Source: an uncultured Caryophanales bacterium (GTDB lineage Bacteria; Bacillota_I; Bacilli_A; RF39; UBA660). From it: a DNA stretch of 46,136 nucleotides. Under the pieces are notes generated by a model. It searched no databases, was not told the DNA's origin, and saw only the letters and a list, made by a program, of their open reading frames with translations. Numbering within the stretch: the stretch's first letter is position 1; each line of letters starts with the position of its first letter. Location of the stretch: contig CAMUXV010000006.1 in assembly GCA_947164795.1 (NCBI GenBank), positions 1-46,136 of the forward strand, in the 5' to 3' direction. Shown in pieces: positions 209 to 45,755 of this stretch. Position numbers and translations under genes: made by a program.

Positions 209-1831
209 CTATTTTTCGTGTTCTACGATAAAATAATCTTGTTTTTTTCCTTTAACTTCTAAATTAATTGGTTCATTTAAAAATACTAATTTCCATTCGA
301 ACCAATCTTTATGTACTGTTATTTTTTCTACTACCTCCTCTATTAATAAATCATTAATTCCATTGTAATTAAAATCTAATAATCTTCTAACACTTTGTTT
401 AGCTTTTTCAATTTTAACTTCAGGTGGATCTAATCTTTTTAATTCTTTTTCTAAATCTTCTATTTCTAATTTATATAATTCTATTTTTTCAGATAGTTTC
501 TTTTGAAATGATTCATAATCAGCTGGATTTACTTTCTTATCTAAATATAAATTCAATAATCTATCTAGCTTAATTGATTCTTCTTTTATTAATTTATTAT
601 ATCTTTTTATTTCATTATTTAATTCATCAGCATCATGTGTATCTATTTTTATTCCATTTAATAATATCAACTCTAATTCTATTCTATTATGGTCATCATT
701 AACTAAATTTCTAAATATGAACTCAGCCATTTTTTCAAGTTTCCATTCTTGAACTTCTTTTACTTCACAGAATTTATAACCATATTCATATTTTCCACCT
801 TTAGGATGAGTTTTTCTATTATAGCATGCATAAGCATATGTTTTACCTTTGTTAGTTGTATGATCTTTTCTTCTATTAAAATTCGAACCACATTCACAAA
901 TCATTTTCTTACTCCAAATATATTTAGGTACTCCAATTGCTGTCCTATCACCTGATGTTGATGGTTTAGAATGTCTATCTAATATCGCTTGTACTTTTTC
1001 AAAATCTTCTTTTAAAATTATAGGTTCATGTGTACCTTCAACAACTATTTGTTCTATCTCTCCTCTATTCTTTCTTGCTTTTTGTTCAAGATAATCTGGA
1101 ATATATTGTTTGTTATAGACTATCGTTCCAGCATAAAATTGGTTCCTTAAAACACGAGTAATATATGCAGCATTCCATCTAGTTAGCCCAGTAGAAGTCT
1201 TATAACCCTTTCTTTCTAGATCCTTTGCTATTGTAGTAGTTCCTACACCATTTAGATATTCTTTAAATATATATCTAACTATATCTGCTTGTTCTTGATT
1301 AACTACCATAGTATTTTTATTAATTTTGTCATATCCTAAAATATTTCCTGAGCCCATAAAAATACCATTTTGAAAAGCAATTCTTAAACCTGCTTTTACT
1401 CTTTGAGATGTTTTCTTACTTTCATTTTGAGCTAATGTAGCCATAATAGTAAGTTTTAATTCTCCATCATCATCTTTGAATGTCCAAATATTATCTTCAG
1501 TAAAATATACTTCCACACCTATCTTTTTTAGCTTTCTTGTTTCTTGTAATGTATCAACTGTATTCCTTGCAAATCTCGAAACTTCGCGAGTAATAATTAA
1601 ATCAAATTTACCTTCATGAGCATCCTTCATCATTCTTATAAAATTCTTTCTTTTCTTAATAGAAGTACCTGTAATACCTTCATCTATATATCTATCATAT
1701 AGAATCCAATTAGGATGTTTATCTAAAATATCATCATAGTACTGAACTTGATTATCTAATGCTGATAATTGAGCTTCATGTTCAGTAGATACACGAGCAT
1801 ATATAGCAACCTTCCTATTCATTTTCATCAC
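209..1831 (-). CDS. Large serine recombinase (resolvase/invertase N-terminal domain, recombinase domain, zinc beta-ribbon, coiled coil)
   Basis: VAIYARVSTEHEAQLSALDNQ with catalytic Ser motif, ITREVSRFARN, MICECGSNFNRR zinc ribbon. Confidence 0.95.
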   Translation of the reverse strand: MMKMNRKVAIYARVSTEHEAQLSALDNQVQYYDDILDKHPNWILYDRYIDEGITGTSIKKRKNFIRMMKDAHEGKFDLIITREVSRFARNTVDTLQETRKLKKIGVEVYFTEDNIWTFKDDDGELKLTIMATLAQNESKKTSQRVKAGLRIAFQNGIFMGSGNILGYDKINKNTMVVNQEQADIVRYIFKEYLNGVGTTTIAKDLERKGYKTSTGLTRWNAAYITRVLRNQFYAGTIVYNKQYIPDYLEQKARKNRGEIEQIVVEGTHEPIILKEDFEKVQAILDRHSKPSTSGDRTAIGVPKYIWSKKMICECGSNFNRRKDHTTNKGKTYAYACYNRKTHPKGGKYEYGYKFCEVKEVQEWKLEKMAEFIFRNLVNDDHNRIELELILLNGIKIDTHDADELNNEIKRYNKLIKEESIKLDRLLNLYLDKKVNPADYESFQKKLSEKIELYKLEIEDLEKELKRLDPPEVKIEKAKQSVRRLLDFNYNGINDLLIEEVVEKITVHKDWFEWKLVFLNEPINLEVKGKKQDYFIVEHEK

Positions 1832-1871
1832 CTCTACTAAAACTTATCATTTTTGTAAGAATTTGTTTACT

Positions 1872-1921
1872 GTGCGATTTTTGTATAGAAAAAGAAGTAT
1901 TTCTACTTCTTTCATCGCACA
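1872..1921 (-). terminator. Hairpin terminator enclosed in a second stem
   Basis: AAGAAGTA-GAAA-TACTTCTTTTT nested inside GTGCGAT...ATCGCAC on the minus strand. Confidence 0.6.
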
Positions 1922-1942
1922 TTTGACATTATTCTTTATTAG

Positions 1943-3688
1943 TTAATTCTTGATTCTTTTAGAACCATTAATATTACATTTTGGACAACCATTTCCATTT
2001 GTACGATTATAAACAGCAGCTTGCCATTCATTACCACAGCAAGAACACTTCCACCATACCTTTTTACCACTACCGATAGTTAGAACATCTGGAGTCAATG
2101 GAAAGTTCTTCTCATAGTCCCATTCTTTTACTAAATCGGACCTTTTGATTAATAAATTATTTTTGTTATTAGTAGAATTTATGCGATTCATATCACCAAT
2201 ATGTTTATGTTTACAATCAAAACAATAATTGGTTTTTGCTTTTATCCTTGAACATACAGGCATTCTATAAGATAATCCGCAATTTTCACAAATCCACCAT
2301 ACATTTTTCCTACTACTATAATACAATTCAGATGGTAAAATTCCAACATTTTTTTCTTTGTCCCAATATTTCATCAAATTAGGAAATCTTTTTTCTAAAC
2401 TGTTAGTTTCATTAACTTTTTTGGCAGAACAATAAGGACAATTAATATATTCTATTTTTCTACCTATACTTGTTGTAAATGAACTACCACATTTTTTGCA
2501 CTTCCACCATACTTTTTTATTGGATCCAACTGAAAGGCTTTCTGGTAATAACCCATCATTTCTTTCATAATCCCACTCATCTAATAATTCAGGATAATAA
2601 ATAGTAAAATTATTATCTTTAATGATCTTAACATACTGATTGTAAATATTAATTTGATCTTTTTGAATATTAACACCATCAATTGTTATATTTAATAATC
2701 CTTGTATACATTTAATAACATGTTCCAAATAAATATAATCTCTATCAATAATGCAATAAATTACATTATTTTCTTTATCAATCAAGTTTTTATTTGATTC
2801 TTTTATATGATATAGCTTTATATTATTATTCTTTATAATTTCATTTTTCTTTTTTTCTTTTAATCTGCTTTTTTCATTTTCATGATAATATGAACCATCA
2901 TATTCAAATCCAACTTTATAATCTGGTAAAAATATATCTATTTCTTGTCCTTCAATTTTTTTACGGCTTTCTACTGTTGTAACTTTTGATAAATAATATA
3001 AAATTGCTTGTTCTGGAAATGAAGTACCATATTCAAAATAGCAATGAGGACATCCTGTTCCATTTGTTCTTTTAGATACACTTGCTTTCCACGTATGACC
3101 CAATGGACATTTCCACCAAACTTTTCTATTTGAACCAGCCATGAAATCACTTGGATTTATATCAGCATTCTTTTCATAATCCCAACTATCTAAAATTTCT
3201 GGATGTGTAGTTTCAATATCGTTCTCACCTTTAATAGCTTTTTGTCCTGTACAATAAATACATCCTGATCCTCCAGTTCTATTGCAAACTCTTGCCTGCC
3301 ATTCATGACCTTTTTTACATTTCCACCAAACAGTTTTTCCACTTCCGATAGTTACATCTTTTGGTGTTAAAGGTAAATTCTTCTCAATATCCCATTCATC
3401 AACTAAATCGGGTCTATTATCATATAATGATCCTCTTTTATTCAGTATAGATTTATTGTGATTAATTCCTATCTTCTTTAAACCACATTTTGGGCAACCA
3501 GTTCCTCCTCTTGTTCTACTCTTGGGTGATGCTTCCCACTCATTACCACATTCTAAACATTTCCACCAAATTTTTTTACTACTACCTGTAGTAATATCAT
3601 TTAAAAAAACACTTTGATTTTTATCAAAATCATACTCTTTTATAAGTTCTATATTATCTTTTAATAAGTTACTCATATGACACCTCAT
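1943..3688 (-). CDS. Multi-zinc-ribbon protein (DUF4379-like repeats) with an embedded endonuclease-like domain
   Basis: Six WWxC..C...W........GCxxC units; central segment FPEQAILYYLSKV...QEIDIFLPDYKVGFEYDGSYYHE resembles Vsr/PD-(D/E)XK-type nucleases. Confidence 0.75.
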   Translation of the reverse strand: MRCHMSNLLKDNIELIKEYDFDKNQSVFLNDITTGSSKKIWWKCLECGNEWEASPKSRTRGGTGCPKCGLKKIGINHNKSILNKRGSLYDNRPDLVDEWDIEKNLPLTPKDVTIGSGKTVWWKCKKGHEWQARVCNRTGGSGCIYCTGQKAIKGENDIETTHPEILDSWDYEKNADINPSDFMAGSNRKVWWKCPLGHTWKASVSKRTNGTGCPHCYFEYGTSFPEQAILYYLSKVTTVESRKKIEGQEIDIFLPDYKVGFEYDGSYYHENEKSRLKEKKKNEIIKNNNIKLYHIKESNKNLIDKENNVIYCIIDRDYIYLEHVIKCIQGLLNITIDGVNIQKDQINIYNQYVKIIKDNNFTIYYPELLDEWDYERNDGLLPESLSVGSNKKVWWKCKKCGSSFTTSIGRKIEYINCPYCSAKKVNETNSLEKRFPNLMKYWDKEKNVGILPSELYYSSRKNVWWICENCGLSYRMPVCSRIKAKTNYCFDCKHKHIGDMNRINSTNNKNNLLIKRSDLVKEWDYEKNFPLTPDVLTIGSGKKVWWKCSCCGNEWQAAVYNRTNGNGCPKCNINGSKRIKN

Positions 3689-4478
3689 TATTTATTTTTT
3701 TAACTTCATCAAGTGTTATTTCTAGATTAATACTTTTTATAATATCTAATAATAAATTATATTTTGCTTTATCTTTTGGTAAATATTTATTTTTCTTAAA
3801 AAATATATAAAATTTTTTTAGATTACTACCCATAATTTTTTTAAGTTTATCAGGAACATATTTGAAATCTTTAAAATCGTCATAAAACAAATTTTCCCAT
3901 ACCATATATCGTGCAAGATAATGAGTAATTGTATATATTAACTCCACATGATTAGTTGAATCTATAACCTCTTCCAACATTTTATTTTTCTTTGGAACTT
4001 CTAAATTAATTAAATCTTCTTTATTTCCAAAAGCCATTGGTAAATATTTCCTATAGAATATGTAAGATTTTTTCTTAGCATTAAATTCTGTCCAGATATA
4101 AAAGGCATAGTATTCATTGCTTTTAAGCATCTCATCATAGTTACCATTAAAGAATAATTTACAATATTTATAAAAATCAACTGCATGTGTTAGTTCATGA
4201 TATACCGTACAAAAAAGCATATAATCTTTTCCAAAATTATCTAATTCTTTATTATCAATTAATATATTAAATGGTTCTTTAATATTTTTTGGAGGAATTA
4301 CAATACCATTATAATCATTATCTGTAAATCGTTGGTTTCTTCCATATTTTTCATTATACTTTTTATATTCTACAGATAAGTCATCAGTAAAAATCCAATT
4401 TATTTCTAAATCTTTATAAATGTTATTTTCAGTAAAAATAGATTTTTCAATTAATTTTATAATATATATAATATCCAA
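3669..4478 (-). CDS. Putative zinc metallopeptidase-like protein
   Basis: HExxH motif in FCTVYHELTHAVDFYKY; overlaps the downstream zinc-ribbon gene by 20 nt. Confidence 0.5.
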   Translation of the reverse strand: MDIIYIIKLIEKSIFTENNIYKDLEINWIFTDDLSVEYKKYNEKYGRNQRFTDNDYNGIVIPPKNIKEPFNILIDNKELDNFGKDYMLFCTVYHELTHAVDFYKYCKLFFNGNYDEMLKSNEYYAFYIWTEFNAKKKSYIFYRKYLPMAFGNKEDLINLEVPKKNKMLEEVIDSTNHVELIYTITHYLARYMVWENLFYDDFKDFKYVPDKLKKIMGSNLKKFYIFFKKNKYLPKDKAKYNLLLDIIKSINLEITLDEVKKINNEVSYE

Positions 4479-4495
4479 ATTGCACCTCCAACTAT

Positions 4496-4942
4496 CTAGT
4501 CATAATTTATATAATCAACATTATAATTATAGTCCCAATCTAAATCATATTTTAAATCATATAATGTAACTTCCTTTTTCATATCGTCAGGAAGCCATCT
4601 TAAATCCTCAAACCTTCCATGCCCTGCCATAACAATTTGTTTCCCATTTGTAATTATTTTTTTCATTGCTTCATAGGCATTTTTAAAACAATCAGGATCT
4701 CCAAATTCAAAATCATAAAATTCATCTAAATATAATACATCATAGTCTTTATATCTATCCATATATGTATTATTTAATACTTCTAATGAAAAATCTCTTG
4801 TATAAGTATTTCCCACCTTTTTGTTTTTATCTAATCCAAGATATTCAAGATTTTTATTAATTCTTGTCCATGTACCATTTGGACTATAAAAATATATTAA
4901 TTTTTGATTATTGATATCCATGTGACCACACCCTATATCCAT
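4496..4942 (-). CDS. Small DnaA/Hda-like AAA+ domain protein with degenerate Walker A
   Basis: MDRYKDYDVLYLDEFYDFEFGDPDCFKNAYEAMKKIITNGKQIVMAGHGRFEDL aligns by eye with DnaA ...YRNVDVLLIDDIQF......F...FN.L....KQIVISSDRPPKEI; the Walker A position reads SPNGTWTR. Confidence 0.5.
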   Translation of the reverse strand: MDIGCGHMDINNQKLIYFYSPNGTWTRINKNLEYLGLDKNKKVGNTYTRDFSLEVLNNTYMDRYKDYDVLYLDEFYDFEFGDPDCFKNAYEAMKKIITNGKQIVMAGHGRFEDLRWLPDDMKKEVTLYDLKYDLDWDYNYNVDYINYD

Positions 4943-4998
4943 TATATCACAGATTTTCTAATAATTTTTGTTCAGAATATTATTATATAGCAAAATCT

Positions 4999-5487
4999 TT
5001 AATCAATGTCTTTTAAATCAAAATGAAGTTTCCATTCTAAATAATCACGATCTGATATTTCTCTGTTCTCTCTTTTTTTTCTCATTTTTTCCCATGCTTC
5101 AAATCCTCTTATAATATCTTCAGTATAGAATGTCTTTTTCATTGCATCGATATCAAAAATAAATTCACTATAAGGACACAACTCTTCTTCCCACATATGT
5201 TGATGTATAACTTCATTAGGATCTGCAAAATTATATCTTTTTATAGCATATACACTTACATCAAATAATTCTGCTAGATATTCTACTCTATCTAGTTCTG
5301 GTTCTCTAGAATTGCACTCATACTTACGGATAGTATCTGCGGGATCCTTTCCACCTAGATTTAAATACTCTGCTACATCAGTCAATTTCATATATCTTAG
5401 TTCTCTCAAAAATTTTAGTTTTGCTCCTTGACTAAGACTCTCCAATTCAGGTTTAAAAAAATAATTACTCATAATATTTACCTCCAA
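4999..5487 (-). CDS. XRE-family helix-turn-helix regulator
   Basis: LKFLRELRYMKLTDVAEYLNLGGKDPADTIRKYECNSREPELDRVEYLAELFDVSVYAI. Confidence 0.85.
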   Translation of the reverse strand: MEVNIMSNYFFKPELESLSQGAKLKFLRELRYMKLTDVAEYLNLGGKDPADTIRKYECNSREPELDRVEYLAELFDVSVYAIKRYNFADPNEVIHQHMWEEELCPYSEFIFDIDAMKKTFYTEDIIRGFEAWEKMRKKRENREISDRDYLEWKLHFDLKDID

Positions 5488-32513: not shown

Positions 32514-33095
32514 TTATTCTAATATTTCTTTAATTATAGTTCTCACTTCGTATATTCTTTTATTTAAAAAATCAGGATGATCTTTAAACCATTTAATGTT
32601 AAGTGGTGATGGATGAGGAAGTACTAATGTTAATTTACTATTTAAACAATTATCTTTAAATACTAAATCATTAAAATTATCATTAGGAAAGAATACTTTG
32701 GCTGATTTAGCTCCTATTAAAATATATATTCTATTATTAATATATTCTAATTCTTTCTTTATCCATTTTTCATAACATATTCTAGGAGGCATTCTATCAT
32801 TACCATTTTTATCTTTACCTGGATAACAATGAGATAATGCTGCAATATAGAAGTTATCTGGATTATAAAATTCTTCATCTGTTATTTGATACCAGTCATA
32901 TTTTAATTTTTTACCGCTTTGATCAGTAAATGGTTTTAATGATTCATGGACTGTCCTTGATGGTGCCTGACTAATTTGTACTATTTTAGAATTTGTATTT
33001 CCTATTACAACGGGATGAGGAGTAAAACCAAATTTGTTTTTACATATATCGCATTTTTTTAATTCTTTTATTAATTTATTAAATTCTTCTTCCAT
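32514..33095 (-). CDS. Uracil-DNA glycosylase superfamily protein
   Basis: CDICKNKFGFTPHPVV...IVQISQAPSRTVHESLKPFTDQSGKKL; LVLPHPSPLNIKWF. Confidence 0.8.
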   Translation of the reverse strand: MEEEFNKLIKELKKCDICKNKFGFTPHPVVIGNTNSKIVQISQAPSRTVHESLKPFTDQSGKKLKYDWYQITDEEFYNPDNFYIAALSHCYPGKDKNGNDRMPPRICYEKWIKKELEYINNRIYILIGAKSAKVFFPNDNFNDLVFKDNCLNSKLTLVLPHPSPLNIKWFKDHPDFLNKRIYEVRTIIKEILE

Positions 33096-33096
33096 A

Positions 33097-33612
33097 TTAT
33101 TCTATTTCACTTTTATATATTTTAAATATCTCTAGCATTTCTTTTGCTATTCCTTTTTTATCTCCATATTCATTAACATTTTTAGTAAGTTCTTCTTCTA
33201 CTTTATTTAAAGGAATATATGTTAATTTAAAATTGCCTTCTTTTTCTTCTTCTGTATAATTAGTATTATTTAAATTTGGTTTTTCATCAGTTTTAATTTC
33301 ATAATAGTATATTTCTATTTTTCTGTTTTTACCTACTTCTGGCCAATCCTTATAATATCCAGACATTTTAATAAATGGTTCTATATTATTTACATTTAAA
33401 TTAATACCGGTTTCCTCAAGTAATTCTCTGTTTACAGCAGTAATTAATTCTTCATTATCTTCGACATGACCTCCAGGAAATTGATATTCATTATGAGAAT
33501 ATCCTAGTAATATTTCACTATTCGAATTAATTAGTAATACTTTTACTCTTTTTACTATTTCAGTCATCTCTTCTTCTTTTAAATTATATTTATTTGTAAT
33601 AATTTCTTTCAT
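33097..33612 (-). CDS. NUDIX hydrolase
   Basis: FPGGHVEDNEELITAVNRELLEETGINL Nudix box. Confidence 0.93.
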   Translation of the reverse strand: MKEIITNKYNLKEEEMTEIVKRVKVLLINSNSEILLGYSHNEYQFPGGHVEDNEELITAVNRELLEETGINLNVNNIEPFIKMSGYYKDWPEVGKNRKIEIYYYEIKTDEKPNLNNTNYTEEEKEGNFKLTYIPLNKVEEELTKNVNEYGDKKGIAKEMLEIFKIYKSEIE

Positions 33613-33633
33613 AATTCATCTTCTTTCTTATTA

Positions 33634-34401
33634 TTATAAAAATAACTCTGTTAATAATATGTAATAATTAATAGTTTTATAATTAGGTTTAATATCTAGT
33701 TTTTTAAATAAATATTCTTCTGCCTCTTTAGACTCATAATTTCTTCTTAGTGATTTAACTAATATTGCTATATCATACCAATAATCAGCAATTCCTGAGT
33801 CTCCTAAATCAATAAATCCTGTTACTTTATCATTTTTAAAGAATATATTTGGCAAACTTAAATCACCATGCGATAAGCATAATTTTTCTTCATTTATTTT
33901 ATTATCTACTAAATATTTATATAGGTTTTCTGTACTACCAAATCTTTTTTGATTTTCTTCATTCATATCTTCTTTAGTAACTAATTTATTATCAATATTA
34001 TATTTAGCTACTGATAATTTTATATCTAAATTATTATATATTGGGCAGTTATTTATATCGTATTCTTGTAACATTTTTAAAGCATCTGCTGCTAAATCAA
34101 TTACACGATGCATATCATCAAATATTTCATCGCAGCAGATCATATCTCCATCTAATTTTCTTGTTATTAATGTACTATATGCTCCATCGTAATTAAAATA
34201 TATAACTTCTGGTACTGGTATTTTATTTTTTAAATAATTAAACATAAAATACTCTCTATCTAGTTTATTTCCTTTAGCTTGTTTTATATAGTAAATATCA
34301 TTATCTTTAACTATTTCTCTAACACTATCTCCAGAACAACCAATATTAATATCGTTTACTGTAGCATTTTTTATAAATTCTTTTATATAAGTATTATCCA
34401 T
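33634..34401 (-). CDS. Aminoglycoside phosphotransferase-family (APH(3')-like) kinase
   Basis: LCLSHGDLSLPNIFFKNDKVTGFIDLGDSGIADYWYDIAI. Confidence 0.88.
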   Translation of the reverse strand: MDNTYIKEFIKNATVNDINIGCSGDSVREIVKDNDIYYIKQAKGNKLDREYFMFNYLKNKIPVPEVIYFNYDGAYSTLITRKLDGDMICCDEIFDDMHRVIDLAADALKMLQEYDINNCPIYNNLDIKLSVAKYNIDNKLVTKEDMNEENQKRFGSTENLYKYLVDNKINEEKLCLSHGDLSLPNIFFKNDKVTGFIDLGDSGIADYWYDIAILVKSLRRNYESKEAEEYLFKKLDIKPNYKTINYYILLTELFL

Positions 34402-34494
34402 AGTTTCACCTTCTTCGTATTTATATTATCATAAGTGTGTAAGCTTATCAACCAATTATGAAAAAGAAGATAATTTTTAAGTTATCTCCTAACA

Positions 34495-35124
34495 TTATTT
34501 TATTATAGGCATCTTTTTATCAAAAGTAACTTCATTATATCTTTCAATGCCTTGTTCATTACATAATTCTAAATATTTGTCATCCCAAGATAATCTATAT
34601 GCATTATTAATATTTAGTCCAAGTTTATCTACCCATGTTTTTACTACTTCTTCTGGATTCTTAGTTAAACTTTTATTTTCTATTTCGACACATACTCCAA
34701 AAGGATATTCATCTAATGATACCTCAATATCTTCATTCTCATAAACAGTTCTATATCTTTCATAACTCTCTACTACTTCAAAGTGCATAACATTATTTAT
34801 TATAAAGATAAAGTTATCTATATCTTCTGGATTAATTCTAACTTCTTTTTCTTCTTCTTTATTTACTTCAGTTTCAGTCGTACTTTTTAATCTTCTTTTC
34901 CAACTTAATTTACATTTTGTTTCCTTTTCATTTGAAGATATTCTAAGTCTAAATCTTCCATCTATTTCTTTATCATAAAAATCAAATCTCTTATCCGAAT
35001 GGTTATACTGAATAGTCTTTTCGTATGTTCTTAGTTTTTTTGTTAGTTCAGTCATTCCATCTAAATTTTGAATAATTTTCTCTATCTCTTCCATCCCATA
35101 ATAAAATCTTACCTCGTACTCCAT
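34495..35124 (-). CDS. CYTH-like domain protein
   Basis: MEYEVRFYYG...GRFRLRISSNEKETKCKLSWKRRL...YERYRTVYENEDIEVSLDEYPFGVCVEIE. Confidence 0.65.
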   Translation of the reverse strand: MEYEVRFYYGMEEIEKIIQNLDGMTELTKKLRTYEKTIQYNHSDKRFDFYDKEIDGRFRLRISSNEKETKCKLSWKRRLKSTTETEVNKEEEKEVRINPEDIDNFIFIINNVMHFEVVESYERYRTVYENEDIEVSLDEYPFGVCVEIENKSLTKNPEEVVKTWVDKLGLNINNAYRLSWDDKYLELCNEQGIERYNEVTFDKKMPIIK

Positions 35125-35202: not shown

Positions 35203-37005
35203 TTATTTTAAATACTTGCTTATTTTTTCTAATACTTTATTTTTATCTAATGGTTTTAGAATATAATCAATAAAACCATATTTTAAATATTCTTCATTAT
35301 ATTCATAATCATTATTCTTAGTAAGTAATACTACTTTAGTATTAAAGTTTTTAATATTCTTTAATTTAGTAATTACTTCTATACCACTAAGTGGTTTCAT
35401 TTCTTCATCTAATAATATTAAATCATACTTTTCTTTATTTCTTATTTTATCTAGACATTCTTTACCTAGACTTACTATATCTAATTCAATATTAGTATTA
35501 GATAATATCTTAGTAAATAATTTCTGACTAGATATGTTATCATCTACGAGTAATATTCTTTTCTTATCTAATTCTTTATTATATTTAGATGATTTACTTT
35601 TTTCTTCATATACTTTTTGATCTAATATTATTTTAATAGAAGTACCACTACCATAAGTACTAGATGGTACTATAGTCCCATTCATTAAAGTAATTAATTT
35701 TTTAGCATTATATAGACTATTATTTAAATTAGTACTATCTTCTTCTTTTTTAGTGTTTAAAGCTCTATTTAATTCTTCTATCTTCATACCAGTACCAGAG
35801 TCTTCTACTGTAATAATTAATCTTGCTATATCATTTTTAATAATAGTATTTACATTTAATTCAATATAACCTTTTTCTGTATACTTATAACTATTTTCTA
35901 ATAATATATCGATTACTTTCTTTAAACTAACACTATCTCCATATAAATACTGTGGAAGTGTTGTATCAATATTACTTCTAAAAGATAATCCTTTGTCTTT
36001 ACACTTTTCTTTATAATTAGTTATTAACTGTTTCAATAATAATTTAATATTATATTTATTATTATATATTTTAATACTAGAAGTATCGATACTAGATATA
36101 TCTAATATTTCATTAGTCATAGTAGTAAATTTAGCAGTACTTCCCTTAATATCTCTAGTGGTTTCTTTTATTAATTCTTTATCTACTTTCTTATTATCTA
36201 TTTCATCTAATATATAATCAGCACTATCATCAATATCTTTAGTAATACTTCTTATATCATTAGTCATATTATATAAGAACAATGTTTTTTCTTCATTAGC
36301 ATTATCTGATATTTCTTTAGCTCTATGAACCTCTTCGAGCATTTTCATATCTGGGTTCTCAATTGTGAAATACATTAAATATCCAATAATCATTCCTAAT
36401 AAAGAGTTTAAATAATTAAAATCAGGGTTTATTGTTTGCACAAAAATAAAAATTGTGGTTAATATTATTGTTGAGTATATTGGAATATATTTCTTTTCTT
36501 TTATATTCTTATAATTCTTTAATACTAATACTATGTTAAATATGGTAAAAATTGCTCCTACTACATATGTCAAATATATAAGAGGGCCATCAACCATTAT
36601 TTTCTTGTCAATAACTTCTAAATTAATTGGAATAAAATATAATAAAATACTTAAATACAATAACAAGTCGATGTTATTAGTTTTCTTTATAACACTATTT
36701 TCTTTTTTTTCAGAAATTGCATATGTGTAAAAACTCAAAAGCAACAGCCAATCTAAAATAATGATAGTATAAGTTTTTTCCAAAAGATTTGCAAAAACAT
36801 TAACTGAATTACTCAAAGTAGTAACAATACCAAAGGAAAGACCAAATATACTTCCAAATAGAGAAAAAACAATTAATCTAGCAAATATACTATGTTCAAT
36901 TCTTTTTATCCTTGGTTTAGAAAAATAAAATATATTTAACATTATTATCATAAATAAGTTTAATATATTTATTGATATTATTTGAATAGTTACATTATCT
37001 ATCAC
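35203..37005 (-). CDS. Membrane hybrid sensor kinase-like protein with receiver domain and degenerate H-box
   Basis: FLYNMTNDIRSITKDI at the H-box, LLENSYKYTEKGYIELNV N-box, VEDSGTGM G-box, receiver ILLVDDN...LILLDEEM...VVLLTKN...ILKPLD. Confidence 0.85.
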   Translation of the reverse strand: MIDNVTIQIISINILNLFMIIMLNIFYFSKPRIKRIEHSIFARLIVFSLFGSIFGLSFGIVTTLSNSVNVFANLLEKTYTIIILDWLLLLSFYTYAISEKKENSVIKKTNNIDLLLYLSILLYFIPINLEVIDKKIMVDGPLIYLTYVVGAIFTIFNIVLVLKNYKNIKEKKYIPIYSTIILTTIFIFVQTINPDFNYLNSLLGMIIGYLMYFTIENPDMKMLEEVHRAKEISDNANEEKTLFLYNMTNDIRSITKDIDDSADYILDEIDNKKVDKELIKETTRDIKGSTAKFTTMTNEILDISSIDTSSIKIYNNKYNIKLLLKQLITNYKEKCKDKGLSFRSNIDTTLPQYLYGDSVSLKKVIDILLENSYKYTEKGYIELNVNTIIKNDIARLIITVEDSGTGMKIEELNRALNTKKEEDSTNLNNSLYNAKKLITLMNGTIVPSSTYGSGTSIKIILDQKVYEEKSKSSKYNKELDKKRILLVDDNISSQKLFTKILSNTNIELDIVSLGKECLDKIRNKEKYDLILLDEEMKPLSGIEVITKLKNIKNFNTKVVLLTKNNDYEYNEEYLKYGFIDYILKPLDKNKVLEKISKYLK

Positions 37006-37062
37006 ACTAACCTCCTACTCTTTATATAAAATATATCATACTTTTCTTACAAAATATACATA

Positions 37063-39009
37063 TTATTTACTAAGTACAAGTTTTTTTGAATTACTTTTTG
37101 GAGGGATTATTTTTATCTCACCGACCGAAATATTTGTTTCATCTATTTCAATAGTATATTCTCTTCCATCTATCTTATGTTCTAGTAAGCATTTATAATC
37201 ATATTTTGAATTTTTTGTTAATGGCATTTCATCAAGAAATCTAATTTTAGTTGGTATTTGCCTTGTTGAAATATCTTTATTATTGATAAGCTTATTTAAA
37301 ATGTTTTCAACTATACTTTTTTTATCTAAATTTATATATTCTGCATTTAAAGTAATGTTTGCAATAGCCATATTTCCCCTTTTTTCTTCATCATAATACT
37401 CATTAATGATACATTCACTAATTTCATCACATTCCGAAATAATTTGTTCCATCACATATGGCTTATATTTATAACCGTCAAATCTGGTAAATGTTCTATC
37501 AATTCTTGTATTAAAAGACATACTGCCATCTGATTCCATATTTATCAAATCACCAGTTTTTATGCAATCAATTCCATCTATTACATAATGAGGTACTATA
37601 GTTTCACCATCTAAAATTCCCAAAGAAACTGATGGAGATGACGCATATGCTTCACCAGTTATAATTTTATGATTTTCATCGAATTTAAGTGGTTTTCTAG
37701 TAGTTGGATCTATTATTATGTAATTCATATATGGCAAAGGTCTTCCAATGCTGCCTATTTTTTCTTCTTTATGATATTTAATACTCGTACTTCCTGTGCA
37801 CTCGCTCATACCATAACCATATTCAAGTCTACAATTTTCTGCATTGTGTTTTTTCAAAAATACTTGCATTTCTTTTTCTCTTGGAAATTCTCCTCCACCT
37901 ACTGTGATTCTTTTTAAAAATGATAAATCTTTTCCATCTAAGTAATGATTATCCATAAGAGGATTTAACATAGTTGGAGCTGCTATCACCATATTAGGTT
38001 TTGTTTTATATATTTTTCTTGGTAAATCATCCGGAGTAAACTCTGGTATTTGAATCATTTTAGCTCCACAGCAAAATCCATAATGAGCAACATCGCCTAT
38101 ACCAAACGAAGCAAAATATGGTAATAAATGAAAGACACTATCTGAAGTTGAATATCTTTCACCAGTTGCAAATATTTGCTGCACGTGTGTATTTAAATTT
38201 TCATTCGTAAGTGGTATTGGCTTAGGCATGGCTCCTGAAGTTCCCGATGTATGAACAATTAAAGCTAATTCATTAGGGCTATAAACGTTATTAATAACTT
38301 TGTTATATCTACTATTATTAATTAAATCATTATATCTAATAATATTCAATTTTGATTTTTTTAACACATCATTTATATGTTCATTATTTTTTTTCATTAA
38401 AGAAAGTTTATCTTTAAGTTTTTTTAAACTATCTATATTATAACCATTTTTATCTATTTCATCAAACAAATATCCAAACTGAGCACGATTATTCATTGCA
38501 TCGTTTATTGAAAAAATAACAACTGGTTCAATCCCTATTTCCTTTAATTCATCCTCTACTTTGCTAAAAAAGGTTTCATAGCATTGATCCAGAATAATGA
38601 TATGTTTTATCTTTTCCTTTTTTATTATCTCAATTATTTTTTTTCCAGTTATTGTTGAGTTAATACTATCTGGTCTTGGATCATAAAAATCTGAAACAGC
38701 ACCTATTTTTGAAGCAGCATAAAATAAATTTGCTGTTGTAGATAAAGTTGGTAATATGGATAGAATTCTATCTTTTTTAACTACTCCAATTGCGCTTAAT
38801 CCTTTTGCTAAATTACTTATGTTATCAATCATTTTGCCATAAGATATTTTATATCCATAAAATTCTGTGGCAATGCTACTTAAGTGTCCGTTAATGTTCG
38901 AAATAAAAAAATCATAGACCGTTTCTTCTGATAATGGTTCAAAATATCTTTTATCATAATATTCAAGCCATGGTTTATCAATATGTGGATATCCTGTTAT
39001 TTCTTTCAT
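37063..39009 (-). CDS. AMP-dependent synthetase/ligase (start revised from 39114)
   Basis: ALIVHTSGTSGAMPKPIPLTNENL, YGYGMSECTGSTSI, IKTGDLINMESDGSM; ATG at 39009 preceded by GGGGGAATTTAATT. Confidence 0.9.
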   Translation of the reverse strand: MKEITGYPHIDKPWLEYYDKRYFEPLSEETVYDFFISNINGHLSSIATEFYGYKISYGKMIDNISNLAKGLSAIGVVKKDRILSILPTLSTTANLFYAASKIGAVSDFYDPRPDSINSTITGKKIIEIIKKEKIKHIIILDQCYETFFSKVEDELKEIGIEPVVIFSINDAMNNRAQFGYLFDEIDKNGYNIDSLKKLKDKLSLMKKNNEHINDVLKKSKLNIIRYNDLINNSRYNKVINNVYSPNELALIVHTSGTSGAMPKPIPLTNENLNTHVQQIFATGERYSTSDSVFHLLPYFASFGIGDVAHYGFCCGAKMIQIPEFTPDDLPRKIYKTKPNMVIAAPTMLNPLMDNHYLDGKDLSFLKRITVGGGEFPREKEMQVFLKKHNAENCRLEYGYGMSECTGSTSIKYHKEEKIGSIGRPLPYMNYIIIDPTTRKPLKFDENHKIITGEAYASSPSVSLGILDGETIVPHYVIDGIDCIKTGDLINMESDGSMSFNTRIDRTFTRFDGYKYKPYVMEQIISECDEISECIINEYYDEEKRGNMAIANITLNAEYINLDKKSIVENILNKLINNKDISTRQIPTKIRFLDEMPLTKNSKYDYKCLLEHKIDGREYTIEIDETNISVGEIKIIPPKSNSKKLVLSK

Positions 39010-39115
39010 AATTAAATTCCCCCAATCAATATATTTTTTAAGTGCTAATCGAATATAATAGCGGTTAAAGATAATTTTTTTATTAATTATTAAAAAGTGT
39101 AATTCAAATATCACC

Positions 39116-40180
39116 TTATCTTCTATCGTCTATTATTATTCTATTAGCTTTTTCACTATTTGTAGTTAAAACGGAAAAATTATTGTCAATAACAATAGCA
39201 AAGGTAAAAGATACAACATCCTCTACATTTTTTTTAAATTTTTCAATATTAACTTTTTTAGACACATGAAAATTCACAGTATCTGTTGGTTCCTTAATAA
39301 TTTCAATATAATACTCACCATCAAATCCACTGTAATCTAAATGATGTAGTAGTTCATCAAAATTTATTACTTGCCCTTTTATCTTTTGAATATTATTCTT
39401 TCTTCCTAATATTTTAATAGTTTTTGTAAAATGTCCACATTTACACCTTATATTATCTAAAATAACTATATCGTTTGTCATGAAGCGTTTCATTTTAACT
39501 TTCGAAAAAATATTATTACTTGTTAGCAAAAGTATACCTGTCCCATTTTCTTTTATTATTAAATCATCTACTAATACTTCCGCATTATAATCTTTTGATA
39601 AATGCAAATTACCACACCGACATTCGCCCGCTATCATTGGAACTTGTAACATACCATAACTATCATATATTTTAGTGTTTAACATTTTTTCTATTTTATT
39701 CCTTATACCGTCAGTTAAAAGTTCACCTCCTGTAACTACAAATTTTATCTTAGCGCTGATGTCTTTTAAATATCCCTCTTTCTCTAAAATATTGCAGATT
39801 TTTAATATGTAACTTGGCATTCCGACAATGACATCAGGTAAAATATTATGGAGTTCACGTACTTTTAATTCACTTCCGTAATTTTTTCCAGAGCCTAACG
39901 GATAGACAATATGTCCCATCTCGCAAAATGTTTGAGTATAGTAATAGGCCGGCGGAAATAATCCATATCCCCAAAGAATGACAATTTTACTATTTTTTTG
40001 AAGAGGTGTTAATTTCATTAATTCCTTTAATCTTTTGTTAGCATTTTTTATTGTATTACTTGGGTATATTATACTTTTTGAAATACCGGTTGTACCTGAT
40101 GAACTAAATACTATTCCGCCTCTTTTATAAAACTTAGAATTAATATATTCATGCCACTCTTCTGTACTTATAAATTTCAT
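39116..40180 (-). CDS. PaaK/CapK-like adenylate-forming enzyme
   Basis: GGIVFSSSGTTGISKSIIYPS, VVTGGELLTDGIRNKIEKML, DSYGMLQVPMIAGECRCGNLH, MTNDIVIL...GHFTKTIKILGRKNNIQKIKG. Confidence 0.85.
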   Translation of the reverse strand: MKFISTEEWHEYINSKFYKRGGIVFSSSGTTGISKSIIYPSNTIKNANKRLKELMKLTPLQKNSKIVILWGYGLFPPAYYYTQTFCEMGHIVYPLGSGKNYGSELKVRELHNILPDVIVGMPSYILKICNILEKEGYLKDISAKIKFVVTGGELLTDGIRNKIEKMLNTKIYDSYGMLQVPMIAGECRCGNLHLSKDYNAEVLVDDLIIKENGTGILLLTSNNIFSKVKMKRFMTNDIVILDNIRCKCGHFTKTIKILGRKNNIQKIKGQVINFDELLHHLDYSGFDGEYYIEIIKEPTDTVNFHVSKKVNIEKFKKNVEDVVSFTFAIVIDNNFSVLTTNSEKANRIIIDDRR

Positions 40181-41283
40181 TTTTGCTCCTCTATAAATTT
40201 TGAGAATAGAATAATATCACAATTTTCTTTGTATGGTTCTCTCAATATTCCTTCACAAAAATAGTTATTCATTGATAATGTATTAGCAATCACGACTTCA
40301 CCGACAGGAACAAAAATTGAAATCTTTCTTCTTTTTAGTAAACAAGCACTTTGTTCTATTTCATTAACTAATTCTAAAATATTTTTTTCATTTAAGTAAG
40401 AATTACTAATTAGAAAAGGAGATACCTTGTAATTTCCTCCCCGTTTAGGAGTCGCTACAACCAAACACTCAATTTCATCATTTTCTAAGACAATAAAGGA
40501 ATCTTTACACTTATGTTCATAAACTAATTTGTTTTCTCCACAAGAACCCGTTACGATAGCTTTAGTAAATGTTCTATCAATATCGTCGAAATACATTTTC
40601 ATATTTTCACAAATAAAATCATTAAGTTTTTCGCAATTAATTTCTAATAGGTTATTTTTAATTATTTTTTTTATTAAGTTAGGTCCTTGATTCGTTCTAA
40701 CAGGAATGCATTCCTTGTTATTATTTTTTTTATTAAAAAACTTGCCACATACACGATCTGAAGAATTTTTAGAATAGTTTTTGCATAATACTGCTTCCAA
40801 TTTCAAATTTAATTTACTATAATCTAAAACGGCTGTAGAATAATTATTTATAGGTGCAGTTACATAAACTTTTCTTGCACCATTTTTAACATAATTATTG
40901 CATACCATTTCAATCATTTCTTTTGCGAATCCTTTTCCTCGGTATTCTGGTAATAAGCATGTCGGTCCTAATTTTATAGAGCCACCTCTTTTTCTAGTTA
41001 TTACTTCAAATCCTATTGGTAAATCATCGTAAAAACAGATCCAAATATCCTTTCCTAACGTAAAAAAACCATATTCATCAAATCCTTTTTTATCTATTTC
41101 AATTAATCTCTTAGCAAAAGATTCATCGATATCATCGTAACTATCTTTTATATTTTGTGTGACGAGATTAATAAAAATTTCATTGTAAATAGGATATTTT
41201 TTTAATCTTTGTATTGATAGTTTTTCAAATATATTTTGATTATTTTTACATTTTAAAATCTTATTCATATAATTATTCACCAC
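40177..41283 (-). CDS. Tandem GNAT acetyltransferase
   Basis: KLGPTCLLPEYRGKGFAKEMIEM motif A; C-terminal half is a diverged repeat (VATPKRGGNYKVSPFLI...). Confidence 0.8.
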   Translation of the reverse strand: MVNNYMNKILKCKNNQNIFEKLSIQRLKKYPIYNEIFINLVTQNIKDSYDDIDESFAKRLIEIDKKGFDEYGFFTLGKDIWICFYDDLPIGFEVITRKRGGSIKLGPTCLLPEYRGKGFAKEMIEMVCNNYVKNGARKVYVTAPINNYSTAVLDYSKLNLKLEAVLCKNYSKNSSDRVCGKFFNKKNNNKECIPVRTNQGPNLIKKIIKNNLLEINCEKLNDFICENMKMYFDDIDRTFTKAIVTGSCGENKLVYEHKCKDSFIVLENDEIECLVVATPKRGGNYKVSPFLISNSYLNEKNILELVNEIEQSACLLKRRKISIFVPVGEVVIANTLSMNNYFCEGILREPYKENCDIILFSKFIEEQK

Positions 41284-41719
41284 TTTTATTTATACTTATT
41301 AGATTATCTATTATATCATTTTTGTTAATATATATAAAATTCTGAGGTGCCTTAAAATTGGGGTTACCTAAAATTATTTTTTCTAAATTTATGGACTTTT
41401 TATATCTTTTTGGATTAATAACTTCAATAGCGCAACATTCTTTTTTATTTTTATAATAATTCTTAAACCATTCTAATGCTTTTATATCTTTTTCATTACC
41501 AGTTATATGCATTAATTCATTAAATGAACATTTCAAAATCCTACCGGCAGTAAATTCACCCACTATTGCTTTTTCTTCTTTCGATGAATAAACCACAATA
41601 GTCAAATTGTCATCATCACATATTTTAGGAAGATTTTTTCTAAATTCCCAATGTTTTGTTCCATTAAATATCTTGTTTGAATATTTAGTCATAATTGACA
41701 TTAAAACCTTTTTTTCCAT
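41273..41719 (-). CDS. ASCH/PUA-like domain protein
   Basis: VLMSIMTKYSNKIFNGTKHWEFRKNLPK...AIVGEFTAGRILKCSF. Confidence 0.65.
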   Translation of the reverse strand: MEKKVLMSIMTKYSNKIFNGTKHWEFRKNLPKICDDDNLTIVVYSSKEEKAIVGEFTAGRILKCSFNELMHITGNEKDIKALEWFKNYYKNKKECCAIEVINPKRYKKSINLEKIILGNPNFKAPQNFIYINKNDIIDNLISINKSGE

Positions 41720-41724
41720 AAAAC

Positions 41725-42162
41725 TTAAATCTCCTCTATTTCTTTAATTATTGTATTTATTAAGTCTTCTATATTTTGATGATATTTAGTTTTATATAAT
41801 GTTTTTGTTGATCCATATTCTATCATTATATTGACTCCATTTCCTTCAGATTTTCTAATATCAGTTCTGATACAAATACTTTTTTTATTATTTGCATAGG
41901 CATAACCCAATTCCCAGGCTACACCTGAATCTACATCTGCTCCATCAACGATGGCAAGAACAATGTCAGAATTATTTATATTATTTTTACACCCTTCAAA
42001 AATTGGATACATATCATATTTACCATCCGTTTCTATTGGAGATACAGTTTGTGGCAAAAAAACCTTAAATTTTCCTGTGCTCTCAATTTTATCTGCTATA
42101 TATTTATTTATATTTCTTTCTAGTGTTGTAAATAGAGGAGCAGCCAAATAAATCTTTTTCAT
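41725..42162 (-). CDS. Nucleoside 2-deoxyribosyltransferase-family protein
   Basis: KKIYLAAPLFTTLERNIN...VFLPQ...SDIVLAIVDGADVDSGVAWELGYAYA. Confidence 0.85.
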   Translation of the reverse strand: MKKIYLAAPLFTTLERNINKYIADKIESTGKFKVFLPQTVSPIETDGKYDMYPIFEGCKNNINNSDIVLAIVDGADVDSGVAWELGYAYANNKKSICIRTDIRKSEGNGVNIMIEYGSTKTLYKTKYHQNIEDLINTIIKEIEEI

Positions 42163-43079
42163 TTCATTCTCCTCCTAGTTTCTTTTATTTTTCTTACTTT
42201 TTCGATATCAGGATAGGAAGTGTTGCTTTCAACCGAAATTGCAGCTAATGTGCTGGCAAATTTTGCACAATCACTATAACTCCAATTTTGAGATATTCCA
42301 TATACTATACCTGCTGAATAAGAGTCCCCTGCTCCAACTGGTGAATTTGCTAATGCTTCATCAGCGGCTACCATCTCAATAAATCCGTTATCATAAAATA
42401 CTTTTGAACCAACTTTTCCATATGTAACAAAAATTGCTCTTAAATTATTATTAATTTTAAATAATAGTCTTAAATCATCAATTTTTAATTTGCTTTTTAA
42501 GGCATTAACTTCTTCTTCATTTCCAATTAAAATGCAACTTTTTTTAATCATTGCATTTAAATATAATTCTGTATTTAGAAAATAATTACTAACATTATGA
42601 ATAATAATTTTATTTTTTTCATTAATTATATTAAGTAATTCCAAATTATACTTTTTTTGATGTGTTGAAAAATAAAATATATCTGATTCTTCACAGATTT
42701 GTTTTTGTTTTTGCGTAACTTTAAATTCAAGCGATGCTGGTTTAAAAAATGAAATACAATTCTCCTCTTTTTTCGTTATTGCAATAAAAACTTCATACAT
42801 TTCTTCGCAAGTATTATCACAATATATTCCATCAACATTTACACCATTATATTGCAAAAAATTAAAATATTTTTTTGCAACTGGATTATTGGGGATTGAG
42901 GTTAAATAACTACAATCACATCCTAAACAAGATAAAGTCAAGGCAACAATAGCTCCTCGTCCACCCATACATTTTGTATTATCATACACATATCCAACAT
43001 CATCTATTTTTGGCAATTCTTCAACTCTTAGTAACGTATCATGAGTCATATTTCCAATACATACAATTTTTTTCTCCAT
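42159..43079 (-). CDS. PfkB-family carbohydrate/nucleoside kinase (start revised from 43103)
   Basis: VCIGNMTHDTLLRVEELPKIDD...GGRGAIVALTLSCLGCDCSYLT; SPVGAGDSYSAGIVYG anion hole. Confidence 0.88.
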   Translation of the reverse strand: MEKKIVCIGNMTHDTLLRVEELPKIDDVGYVYDNTKCMGGRGAIVALTLSCLGCDCSYLTSIPNNPVAKKYFNFLQYNGVNVDGIYCDNTCEEMYEVFIAITKKEENCISFFKPASLEFKVTQKQKQICEESDIFYFSTHQKKYNLELLNIINEKNKIIIHNVSNYFLNTELYLNAMIKKSCILIGNEEEVNALKSKLKIDDLRLLFKINNNLRAIFVTYGKVGSKVFYDNGFIEMVAADEALANSPVGAGDSYSAGIVYGISQNWSYSDCAKFASTLAAISVESNTSYPDIEKVRKIKETRRRMK

Positions 43080-43087
43080 AAATCCCC

Positions 43088-43534
43088 CTAAAATAAGTCC
43101 CAATCCTTATTATTGCTATTGTAAATCATTTCCGAATAATTATTTTCCTTAAATATTTGTAACATAATGTCAAAATTATTTGCTAAATCTTTCTGAGATA
43201 GTTCTTCTTCTGTTATCCAATAGTTTTTTCCTTCTTCTGTTTCTAATATTAAATCTCCAGTAAATGATTCAGACTTATATAGAAATACTATTGAACGTTC
43301 ATTTTTTTCATCATTATACCAATTTTTTATTCCACATAACTCTAAATTATTTATAATCAATCCAGTTTCTTCTTTTACTTCACGGATCGTAGATTTTACT
43401 ATACTTTCACCATTGTTGATTTTTCCTCCAGGAAATGCTAATCCTTTCCAATTTTTTACTCTTTCTTGAACCAATATTTTGTTTGTATTTACATCAATAA
43501 TTTTACACATATTCATTAATTTAATATTTTCCAT
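43088..43534 (-). CDS. NUDIX hydrolase
   Basis: AFPGGKINNGESIVKSTIREVKEETGLII. Confidence 0.93.
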   Translation of the reverse strand: MENIKLMNMCKIIDVNTNKILVQERVKNWKGLAFPGGKINNGESIVKSTIREVKEETGLIINNLELCGIKNWYNDEKNERSIVFLYKSESFTGDLILETEEGKNYWITEEELSQKDLANNFDIMLQIFKENNYSEMIYNSNNKDWDLF

Positions 43535-44261: not shown

Positions 44262-45143
44262 TTACAACTTGTTATAAACATCCTCTATTAACTTTTTTAG
44301 TTTATTAATATATTCAATATTATCTATATTCATTAAATAAAAATGACAATATGCATTAATCATACACCATTTTAAGTTATTATTATCATAAGTGCCAATT
44401 TCTAAATATCCTTTTAAAAAGGATTCTATATCCTCTAAATTATCCATAAATGTTTGTGTTGGCCTCAAAACTATACTCCAAGCAATATCTTGTTCTTTAA
44501 AACCCATACCACTATATTCAAAATCTAAAACACCAGATATATTTCCATTATGCCATAGTATATTTGCATAATGAAAATCACCATGTATAAATGTTTGATT
44601 ATTAATCACAATACCATTATTAGATAAATACTCTATATATGGTTTTAAAAAACTATCAAATTCTTTATAATCATCTATTTTAGGAATGTCATTAATTATT
44701 CGCTTTTTGGCGTCACAAAACAATTTCGAATTAATCTTATGAATTTTGGCCAATTCTCTCCCATATTTTATTAAATAGTTTGATTTATTAACCTCAGAAT
44801 TGCTTCTAAAAATATCCGATAATCTAATACCATCTATTTTTTCAAGTACCATATAATGCTTATTCTCTACTATACCATTTTCTATTATTTTTGGCATCCT
44901 ATCATAACAATTATTTTTCATTAATATTTTCAAATTATTAACTTCAGCATCAAAAGCTGCCATTTTACTTCTTTCAATTTTTATAAATGCATCTATCACT
45001 TTATCTTTATACACACATTTACATTCTACTACATCATTTTGAGCATACGGATAACTAAAAATTTCTAATATCTTAATCTTTTTAAATTTTATAGTTAATG
45101 GATCAATTAATAAATCCCTCCATTTATCATATATTATTCCCAT
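44262..45143 (-). CDS. APH-family phosphotransferase
   Basis: QTFIHGDFHYANILWHNGNISGVLDFEYSGMGFKEQDIAWSI. Confidence 0.9.
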   Translation of the reverse strand: MGIIYDKWRDLLIDPLTIKFKKIKILEIFSYPYAQNDVVECKCVYKDKVIDAFIKIERSKMAAFDAEVNNLKILMKNNCYDRMPKIIENGIVENKHYMVLEKIDGIRLSDIFRSNSEVNKSNYLIKYGRELAKIHKINSKLFCDAKKRIINDIPKIDDYKEFDSFLKPYIEYLSNNGIVINNQTFIHGDFHYANILWHNGNISGVLDFEYSGMGFKEQDIAWSIVLRPTQTFMDNLEDIESFLKGYLEIGTYDNNNLKWCMINAYCHFYLMNIDNIEYINKLKKLIEDVYNKL

Positions 45144-45212
45144 TTTTTACTCCCTTTCTTATATAAGCAAATCTACAAGCAATAATCAAATTACTCTAAC
45201 TCCATATTAGTA

Positions 45213-45755
45213 TTATATTTTTTGATACTCTTCTTTTACCATCAAAGCATATGTTTGAGTTATACCAATTGTATCCTTAGTGCTAAAATAGTTTTTTATA
45301 TAAAAGCCACATTTTTTATAACAATTTATTGCTTTTGTGTTATTTTTCAATGGGCACATCACTAATAATTCAGCCTCTTTTTCTGTTTCTAATATTTTAG
45401 ATAACATATTTATTGCTTTGCTTCCAATTCCTTTGTTATGTTCTTTTAATTCGCCAATAAATATATCAATTTCATAAATATTATTTCCTGTTAAATTATA
45501 CAATCTTTTATCCTCTTCTTCTACTAATTTGTATTGAATTATTCCAACAGGCCTTTTTTGATATTCAATCATATAAACTGGTACTTTAGCCGTTTTTAAT
45601 GTTCTAGGATAATATTTTTCTTTTATTTCATTATAATTTAATTTTCTTTGTTCAAAACTTGAATATATTTCTTCCTCTTGATACCATTTTTCAAGCATTT
45701 TATAATCTTCATCAATATTCTTTAATAATCTGATATTAACATCACACATATTCAC
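45213..45755 (-). CDS. GNAT acetyltransferase, AAC(6')-like
   Basis: YEIDIFIGELKEHNKGIGSKAINMLSKIL...NTKAINCYKKCGFYI. Confidence 0.85.
   Translation of the reverse strand: MNMCDVNIRLLKNIDEDYKMLEKWYQEEEIYSSFEQRKLNYNEIKEKYYPRTLKTAKVPVYMIEYQKRPVGIIQYKLVEEEDKRLYNLTGNNIYEIDIFIGELKEHNKGIGSKAINMLSKILETEKEAELLVMCPLKNNTKAINCYKKCGFYIKNYFSTKDTIGITQTYALMVKEEYQKI

Follow-up and report, generated by a model that had tools for sequence, protein, structure and literature searches.

Organization of the locus

The locus considered here lies on contig CAMUXV010000006.1 of an uncultured Caryophanales bacterium (GCA_947164795.1; GTDB lineage RF39, UBA660), which was analysed over its 46,136 nucleotides (nt), hereafter the window. 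A first-pass annotation had described seven open reading frames (ORFs) within 37063-43534 as one operon of nucleoside and acyl enzymes, in the order NUDIX, PfkB kinase, nucleoside deoxyribosyltransferase-like protein (NDT), ASCH, tandem GNAT, PaaK-like ligase and AMP-ligase. All seven ORFs are real, intact and in that order on the minus strand, and Pfam and NCBIfam models support each family. The reported operon very probably consists of two independent units, a six-gene cassette and an enzyme-sensor locus:

39116-43534, minus strand: unit 1, the translationally coupled cassette NUDIX-PfkB-NDT-ASCH-tandem GNAT-PaaK-like.
35203-39009, minus strand: unit 2, an acyl-AMP ligase and a hybrid sensor.
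37063-39009, minus strand: acyl-AMP ligase of unit 2 (Pfam AMP-binding PF00501, expectation value (E) 9e-42; adenylation motifs kept).
36376-37005, minus strand: hypervariable membrane-sensor part of unit 2, codons 1-210, about six helices (hydropathy; breakpoints in relatives at codons 206-210).
35203-36375, minus strand: conserved cytosolic part of unit 2, HATPase_c and receiver (Pfam HATPase 2e-12, Response_reg 5e-21).

The first six genes overlap or lie a few nt apart, as described earlier. ATGA overlaps join PfkB to NDT and GNAT to PaaK, while gaps of 8 nt (NUDIX to PfkB, given a PfkB start at ATG 43079), 5 nt (NDT to ASCH) and 4 nt (ASCH to GNAT, which starts at ATG 41268, as it does in a relative) separate the others. 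The AMP-ligase follows PaaK after 106 nt (about 107 nt in the first-pass annotation) from its start at ATG 39009, a start that, like those of PfkB and GNAT, was refined in the analysis. GTG 39114 is unlikely as the ligase start, since homologues start at ...TGYPHIDKPW. A sensor-kinase gene, overlooked earlier, begins 57 nt downstream of the AMP-ligase. The analysis is of sequence only and draws on metagenome-assembled genomes, with few allelic pairs and a single intact cassette.

Pairing of the AMP-ligase with a hybrid sensor

Sensor homologues are found in 11/11 genomes of the genus and 105/145 genomes of the family (E<=1e-40). Of 203 genomes sampled across the class, 20 have a sensor match, all of them from this family. 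Directly upstream of the sensor is an acyl-AMP ligase in 10 of the 12 assessable genus loci (one of the ten, L155, identified solely from a weak match to its C terminus) and a PlsC acyltransferase (PF01553) in the remaining 2/12; in the wider family, a ligase precedes the sensor in at least 14 of 27 loci. The genome of the window itself carries a second ligase-sensor pair on contig C8 (L159). The ligase P-loop, in the form HTSGTSG..PKP or TGGTTG/TSGTTG..PKG, is present in 8/8 aligned copies.

The AMP-ligase is placed outside the cassette because the sensor is its genus-wide partner. Its membership is also contradicted by a congener (G002) with a decayed cassette, beside which no trace of the ligase is seen in the little over 100 nt between the PaaK remnant and the tRNA genes. 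Thus, the single operon proposed earlier stands for six coupled genes, four of which are found together, though decayed, in the congener, and falls for the AMP-ligase; likewise, it is the ligase, and not the six-gene cassette, that lacks co-conservation.

The sensors of the genus depart from the usual kinase design. The sensor gene (35203-37005) has no Pfam match to HisKA. The phospho-histidine position is Asn249 in the window sensor, Asn in 11/11 aligned genus copies and Gly in one further partial copy. The receiver Asp and the ATP-binding Asn are kept in the genus, as is a His at position 227 in 10/11 copies (window 35203-37005, L148-L159). Many sensors of the wider family carry a normal SHEIRTPL motif with the His. 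The genus sensors may use an alternative phospho-site or be pseudokinases.

Exchange of the ligase and sensor half as one block

The ligase and the membrane half of the sensor vary in lock-step. In eight pairs from the genus, identity of the ligase rises and falls with that of the sensor half (r=0.985, permutation p=0.0002) vs r=-0.21 for the cytosolic half. The family sample (n=14) behaves similarly, with a ligase-sensor r of 0.65 (partial 0.67, permutation p<0.001) and r=0.01 against the cytosolic half. Mean identity is 33.5% for the sensor half vs 66.4% for the cytosolic half.

The edges of the variable block are seen in allelic comparisons, all of which are among relatives; at its own position, the window copy lacks an allelic partner. 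L150 and L153, from two species, share the locus argS-GNAT-[block]-trpS and are 94.9% identical in DNA up to 13 nt inside the ligase ORF; 2.67 kb without detectable similarity follow, after which 94.8% identity returns from sensor codon 210. At the protein level, the cytosolic halves of this pair are 95.7% identical, while the sensors and the ligases are each 28% identical. L149 and L154, at the locus ftsK-yceD-rpmF-[block]-priA, differ in having a ligase vs a PlsC, and become alignable again from codon 206. In L151 and L155, similarity resumes at codon 209. The breakpoints share an edge where the membrane domain ends, at a conserved YFTIENPD. The names of flanking genes (argS, trpS, ftsK, rpmF, yceD, priA and tkt) were assigned by eye from the sequences. 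The contig flanks, and the recurrence of the breakpoint, speak against chimeric assembly. From these comparisons, it is highly probable that a single block made up of ligase and sensor half passes between genomes, joined in each to a conserved cytosolic module.

The six-gene cassette

The genes of the cassette, in order of transcription, are as follows:

43088-43534, minus strand: NUDIX hydrolase (Pfam E 3e-17), with a canonical Nudix box GKINNGESIVKSTIREVKEETGL.
42159-43079, minus strand: PfkB-family kinase (Pfam E 5e-38), GAGD motif present.
41725-42162, minus strand: NDT (Pfam Nuc_deoxyrib_tr E 9e-20; PDB 7o62 E 5e-17).
41273-41719, minus strand: ASCH-domain protein (Pfam E 2e-4; PADLOC PDC-M11B E 2e-28; PDB 5gus E 2e-6 with alignment).
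40177-41268, minus strand: tandem GNAT acyltransferase (Pfam E 2e-5), with internal duplication.
39116-40180, minus strand: short PaaK-like acyl-CoA ligase (NCBIfam PaaK models E 4e-24; PDB 9s3l E 1e-20, 4r1l E 6e-19).

The closest solved structure to the NUDIX protein is 2b06 (92 bits). The PfkB protein is likely a nucleoside or ribokinase-like kinase; its sole PDB match at E<=1e-9 is 2c49 (E 1e-13), the MJ0406 sugar kinase of M. jannaschii, which we take to be a nucleoside kinase.

The NDT retains Tyr5, Asp78 and the nucleophile Glu84, which is invariant in the alignment. In this family, an Asp acts as general acid at the position that is Cys58 in the cassette protein and likewise Cys in a Thiothrix homologue. 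The first-pass annotation had suggested (deoxy)nucleoside monophosphates as substrates. MilB, which cleaves monophosphates, has a phosphate-binding Ser97 and a nucleophilic Glu103 (PMC4081090). The cassette NDT has Asp78 six residues before Glu84, where MilB has Ser97; thus, cleavage of the MilB type is rejected and nucleosides are the likelier substrates.

The ASCH protein is ZmASCH-like. Its Tyr44 and Lys50 match Tyr47 and Lys53 of ZmASCH, an RNase (PMC5615036). The GxKxxxxR motif is present, and the YqfB Thr24 position (placed on the motif by eye) is Glu25. Deacylation of N4-acylcytidine as by YqfB is rejected, as the nucleophilic Thr24 of the Lys21/Thr24/Glu74 triad is missing. ASCH homologues across the phylum occur in unrelated gene contexts.

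The two halves of the GNAT protein match each other (E 3e-8), a true internal duplication of which the second half is degenerate and has lost the RGKGFA acyl-CoA binding motif. Searches of genome_contigs, viral_contigs and plasmids gave no relative of this protein. An AlphaFold model of the tandem GNAT made without homologues has a predicted local distance difference test score of 32 and is not usable. The PaaK-like protein keeps its adenylation motifs, including the P-loop SSSGTTGISKS and the C-terminal Lys, and is short of about 70 N-terminal residues.

Distribution of the cassette and neighbouring genes

The decayed cassette of G002 (contig C93, L014) lies between ppdK and tRNA-Met/tRNA-Leu, a different site from that in the window. 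What remains, in order, is NUDIX, ASCH, the beginning of GNAT and fragments of PaaK, interrupted by stops throughout and 73-85% identical in DNA to the window cassette. The NUDIX block can be aligned as far as the PfkB start, including its ribosome-binding site, and from there runs on as the start of ASCH; the PfkB and ASCH starts have ATGGA(G)AAAAA in common. Most simply, PfkB and NDT would have been lost by recombination between these two starts. The remnant shows that NUDIX, ASCH, GNAT and PaaK move as a group. The position after ppdK (L014:1-1600) is a hotspot for insertions, with the decayed cassette and tRNA genes in G002 and a recombinase-bearing element (209-5487) in the window.

No second intact cassette is found by a NUDIX search of 291 family genomes or a GNAT search of 193 order genomes, nor is a further one found with GNAT2, PaaK and NDT in viral contigs, GNAT2 and PaaK in genome_contigs, or GNAT2 in plasmids. 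The sole genome_contigs match from the GNAT2 and PaaK searches is the decayed congener copy JAGHHB010000056.1 (L119). Conservation of the cassette neighbourhood is thus read from one intact and one decayed copy. Phage homologues of NDT exist, and the plasmid homologues have no common neighbourhood. On a plasmid of Eleftheria terrae (L161:4277-6435), an NDT-like gene and a SIR2-family gene overlap by 4 nt and resemble a defence-type NAD/nucleotide pair.

Both G002 (contig C33) and G087, a member of another genus, have a trio of NUDIX, thymidylate-kinase-like and ASCH genes headed by a NUDIX relative (54-58% identical). The trio stands alone in G087 and heads a larger cluster in G002 (L020:8371-15782). 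The latter, which follows genes for a serine recombinase and a relaxase-like protein, includes NUDIX, thymidylate-kinase-like and ASCH genes, methyltransferases, and genes for alanine-dehydrogenase-like, AlkZ-like glycosylase, aminoacyl-tRNA-synthetase-like (no Pfam match) and AdoMet decarboxylase proteins. It has the appearance of a mobile biosynthetic cluster that includes a DNA-repair gene for self-protection.

Runs of small enzymes flank the window locus at 32514-35124 and 44262-45755 (one gene without assignment, NUDIX, two APH-type kinases, CYTH and GNAT), possibly resistance or detoxification genes. Repeats flanking the cassette are not convincing enough to mark a mobile element. An Rfam search gave no match, and a promoter scan (82 found vs 79 expected from shuffles) did no better than shuffled sequence.

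Possible roles of the cassette

Going by its protein families, the cassette might acylate and recycle a nucleoside-type compound, although this role is doubtful. In the proposed order of reactions, the PaaK-like ligase would convert an acid to an acyl-CoA, the tandem GNAT would use it to acylate an amine on a nucleoside-type acceptor, and the ASCH protein would recognize the acylated base. PfkB, NDT and NUDIX would phosphorylate, transglycosylate or cleave, and clear the matching nucleosides and nucleotides. Operons that combine GNAT, ASCH and a P-loop ATPase are known (PMC7641849), and base acetylation was proposed in an earlier study, as cited in that paper.

Detoxification, in which GNAT would acylate a toxic nucleoside analogue from neighbours, NDT cleave it, and NUDIX and PfkB remove it, is another uncertain candidate. 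The region has two APH-type kinases and another NUDIX, and the cassette is rare, found at different sites and decaying in a relative, as resistance genes are; however, inactivation that depends on acetyl-CoA would not need a dedicated acyl-activating ligase of the PaaK type, and no exporter is present. That the six genes are a chance operon of unrelated small-molecule enzymes is rather unlikely. While loose NUDIX, APH and GNAT genes are abundant in the genome family and the samples searched yield no second intact cassette, the two ATGA couplings and 4-8 nt gaps, the co-inheritance of four genes with the congener remnant at another site and the recurrence of the NUDIX-kinase-ASCH trio speak against it. 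An anti-phage or toxin-antitoxin system akin to the GNAT-EVE/ASCH operons is improbable. The ASCH protein does match a candidate-defence family (PDC-M11B, E 2e-28), and operons of GNAT-EVE, ASCH and AAA_17 are proposed toxin-antitoxin systems (PMC7641849). Yet the cassette has no EVE or PIN domain, GNAT2 matches GNAT-EVE only at E 0.018 over 46 residues, four metabolic enzymes are left unexplained, and PADLOC gave nothing of note on the other cassette proteins beyond a candidate family for NUDIX.

Of the known systems, the GNAT-EVE/ASCH operons (PADLOC PDC-M11) resemble the cassette in that both combine ASCH of one family with an acetyltransferase and with an enzyme that transfers phosphate or has a P-loop. 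By contrast, the cassette GNAT is a tandem without EVE (its second half a degenerate GNAT) and is preceded by ASCH, and the cassette also contains PfkB, NDT, NUDIX and PaaK. The MilB/BlsM nucleoside-antibiotic pathways likewise place an NDT-fold enzyme with a nucleophilic Glu among tailoring enzymes, but the cassette has Asp78 for MilB Ser97 and is accompanied by no hydroxymethylase or other nucleoside-antibiotic genes.

Possible roles of the ligase-sensor locus

The acyl-AMP ligase, or PlsC in some relatives, would make or prime an acyl signal to be read by the six-helix hybrid sensor next to it. Ligase and sensor half would form one block of specificity that is swapped between genomes. By analogy with known signalling loci, chances are about even that the ligase product is the ligand of the adjacent sensor, and the signal may act between cells.

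The nearest analogies are with quorum-sensing loci. In the agr and comQXPA pherotype loci, the synthase and the membrane half of the sensor form a hypervariable block and the kinase half is conserved (PMC10482373, PMC4008528). Unit 2 resembles agr (agrB-agrD-agrC) and comQXPA in having an enzyme gene, of putative synthase role, directly upstream of the sensor gene and, in relatives of the window copy, a hypervariable block of enzyme and sensor half with a conserved cytosolic half. By contrast, its enzyme is an acyl-AMP ligase or PlsC, the receiver is fused to the sensor, no DNA-binding partner is adjacent, and no peptide precursor gene is seen (in the window, a 57-nt gap between ligase and sensor; none in relatives). 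The CqsA gene adjoins the CqsS gene, and CqsA is a pyridoxal phosphate (PLP) enzyme. Unit 2 similarly places an enzyme gene beside a hybrid sensor with six hydrophobic segments, HATPase_c and Response_reg, while its enzyme is a PF00501 ligase or PF01553 PlsC instead of a PLP-dependent synthase of the CqsA type. CqsS, a membrane-bound hybrid sensor, combines ATPase and receiver domains (PMC3310172); it needs His194, whereas the phospho-His is absent in the genus sensors. As no peptide gene is seen, the synthase family differs and the phospho-His is Asn in the genus, unit 2 shows a likeness to these systems and not membership in them.

A role in lipid or fatty-acid homeostasis, with ligase or PlsC feeding a lipid pathway, the sensor monitoring the lipid state and diversity following niche, appears unlikely. 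Such a role fits the replacement of the ligase by PlsC, a phospholipid acyltransferase family (PF01553), and a related ligase in G018 that is flanked by PlsC-like genes. It does not predict that enzyme and sensor half would be swapped jointly, with a sharp breakpoint next to a cytosolic half that is 95% identical, nor that alleles of the same locus would be 28% identical.

The explanation of the locus as two units with these roles is, as a whole and exact chemistry aside, slightly favoured (probability roughly 0.55). Several points weigh against it. The variation of enzyme and sensor in lock-step could mirror an intracellular metabolite or the state of membrane lipids; no output regulator or exporter was identified; and a canonical kinase relay is unlikely in the genus, since the phospho-His is Asn (Gly in the partial copy). 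For unit 1, the cassette is known from one intact copy only, ASCH lacks the catalytic Thr of YqfB, and Cys58 replaces the general-acid Asp of NDT.

Implications

The split into two units corrects a seven-gene 'pathway' that would mislead attempts at reconstitution. The six-gene cassette may be seen as a plausible, rare nucleoside-acylation pathway. Unit 2 is the more surprising result of the two. Pairs of alleles with the block as their sole difference provide a natural experiment, in which a near-identical cytosolic module is joined to a different enzyme and sensor. It is suggested tentatively that gut Bacilli of the family have a new class of cell-to-cell signalling, in which ligases or PlsC supply a variety of acyl signals, each read by a cognate six-helix sensor, and enzyme and sensor half are swapped as allelic dialect blocks on a conserved module that works without phospho-histidine in the genus. 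If true, this would be a widespread, family-restricted signalling system in small-genome gut bacteria, with chemistry and receptor specificity swapped together.

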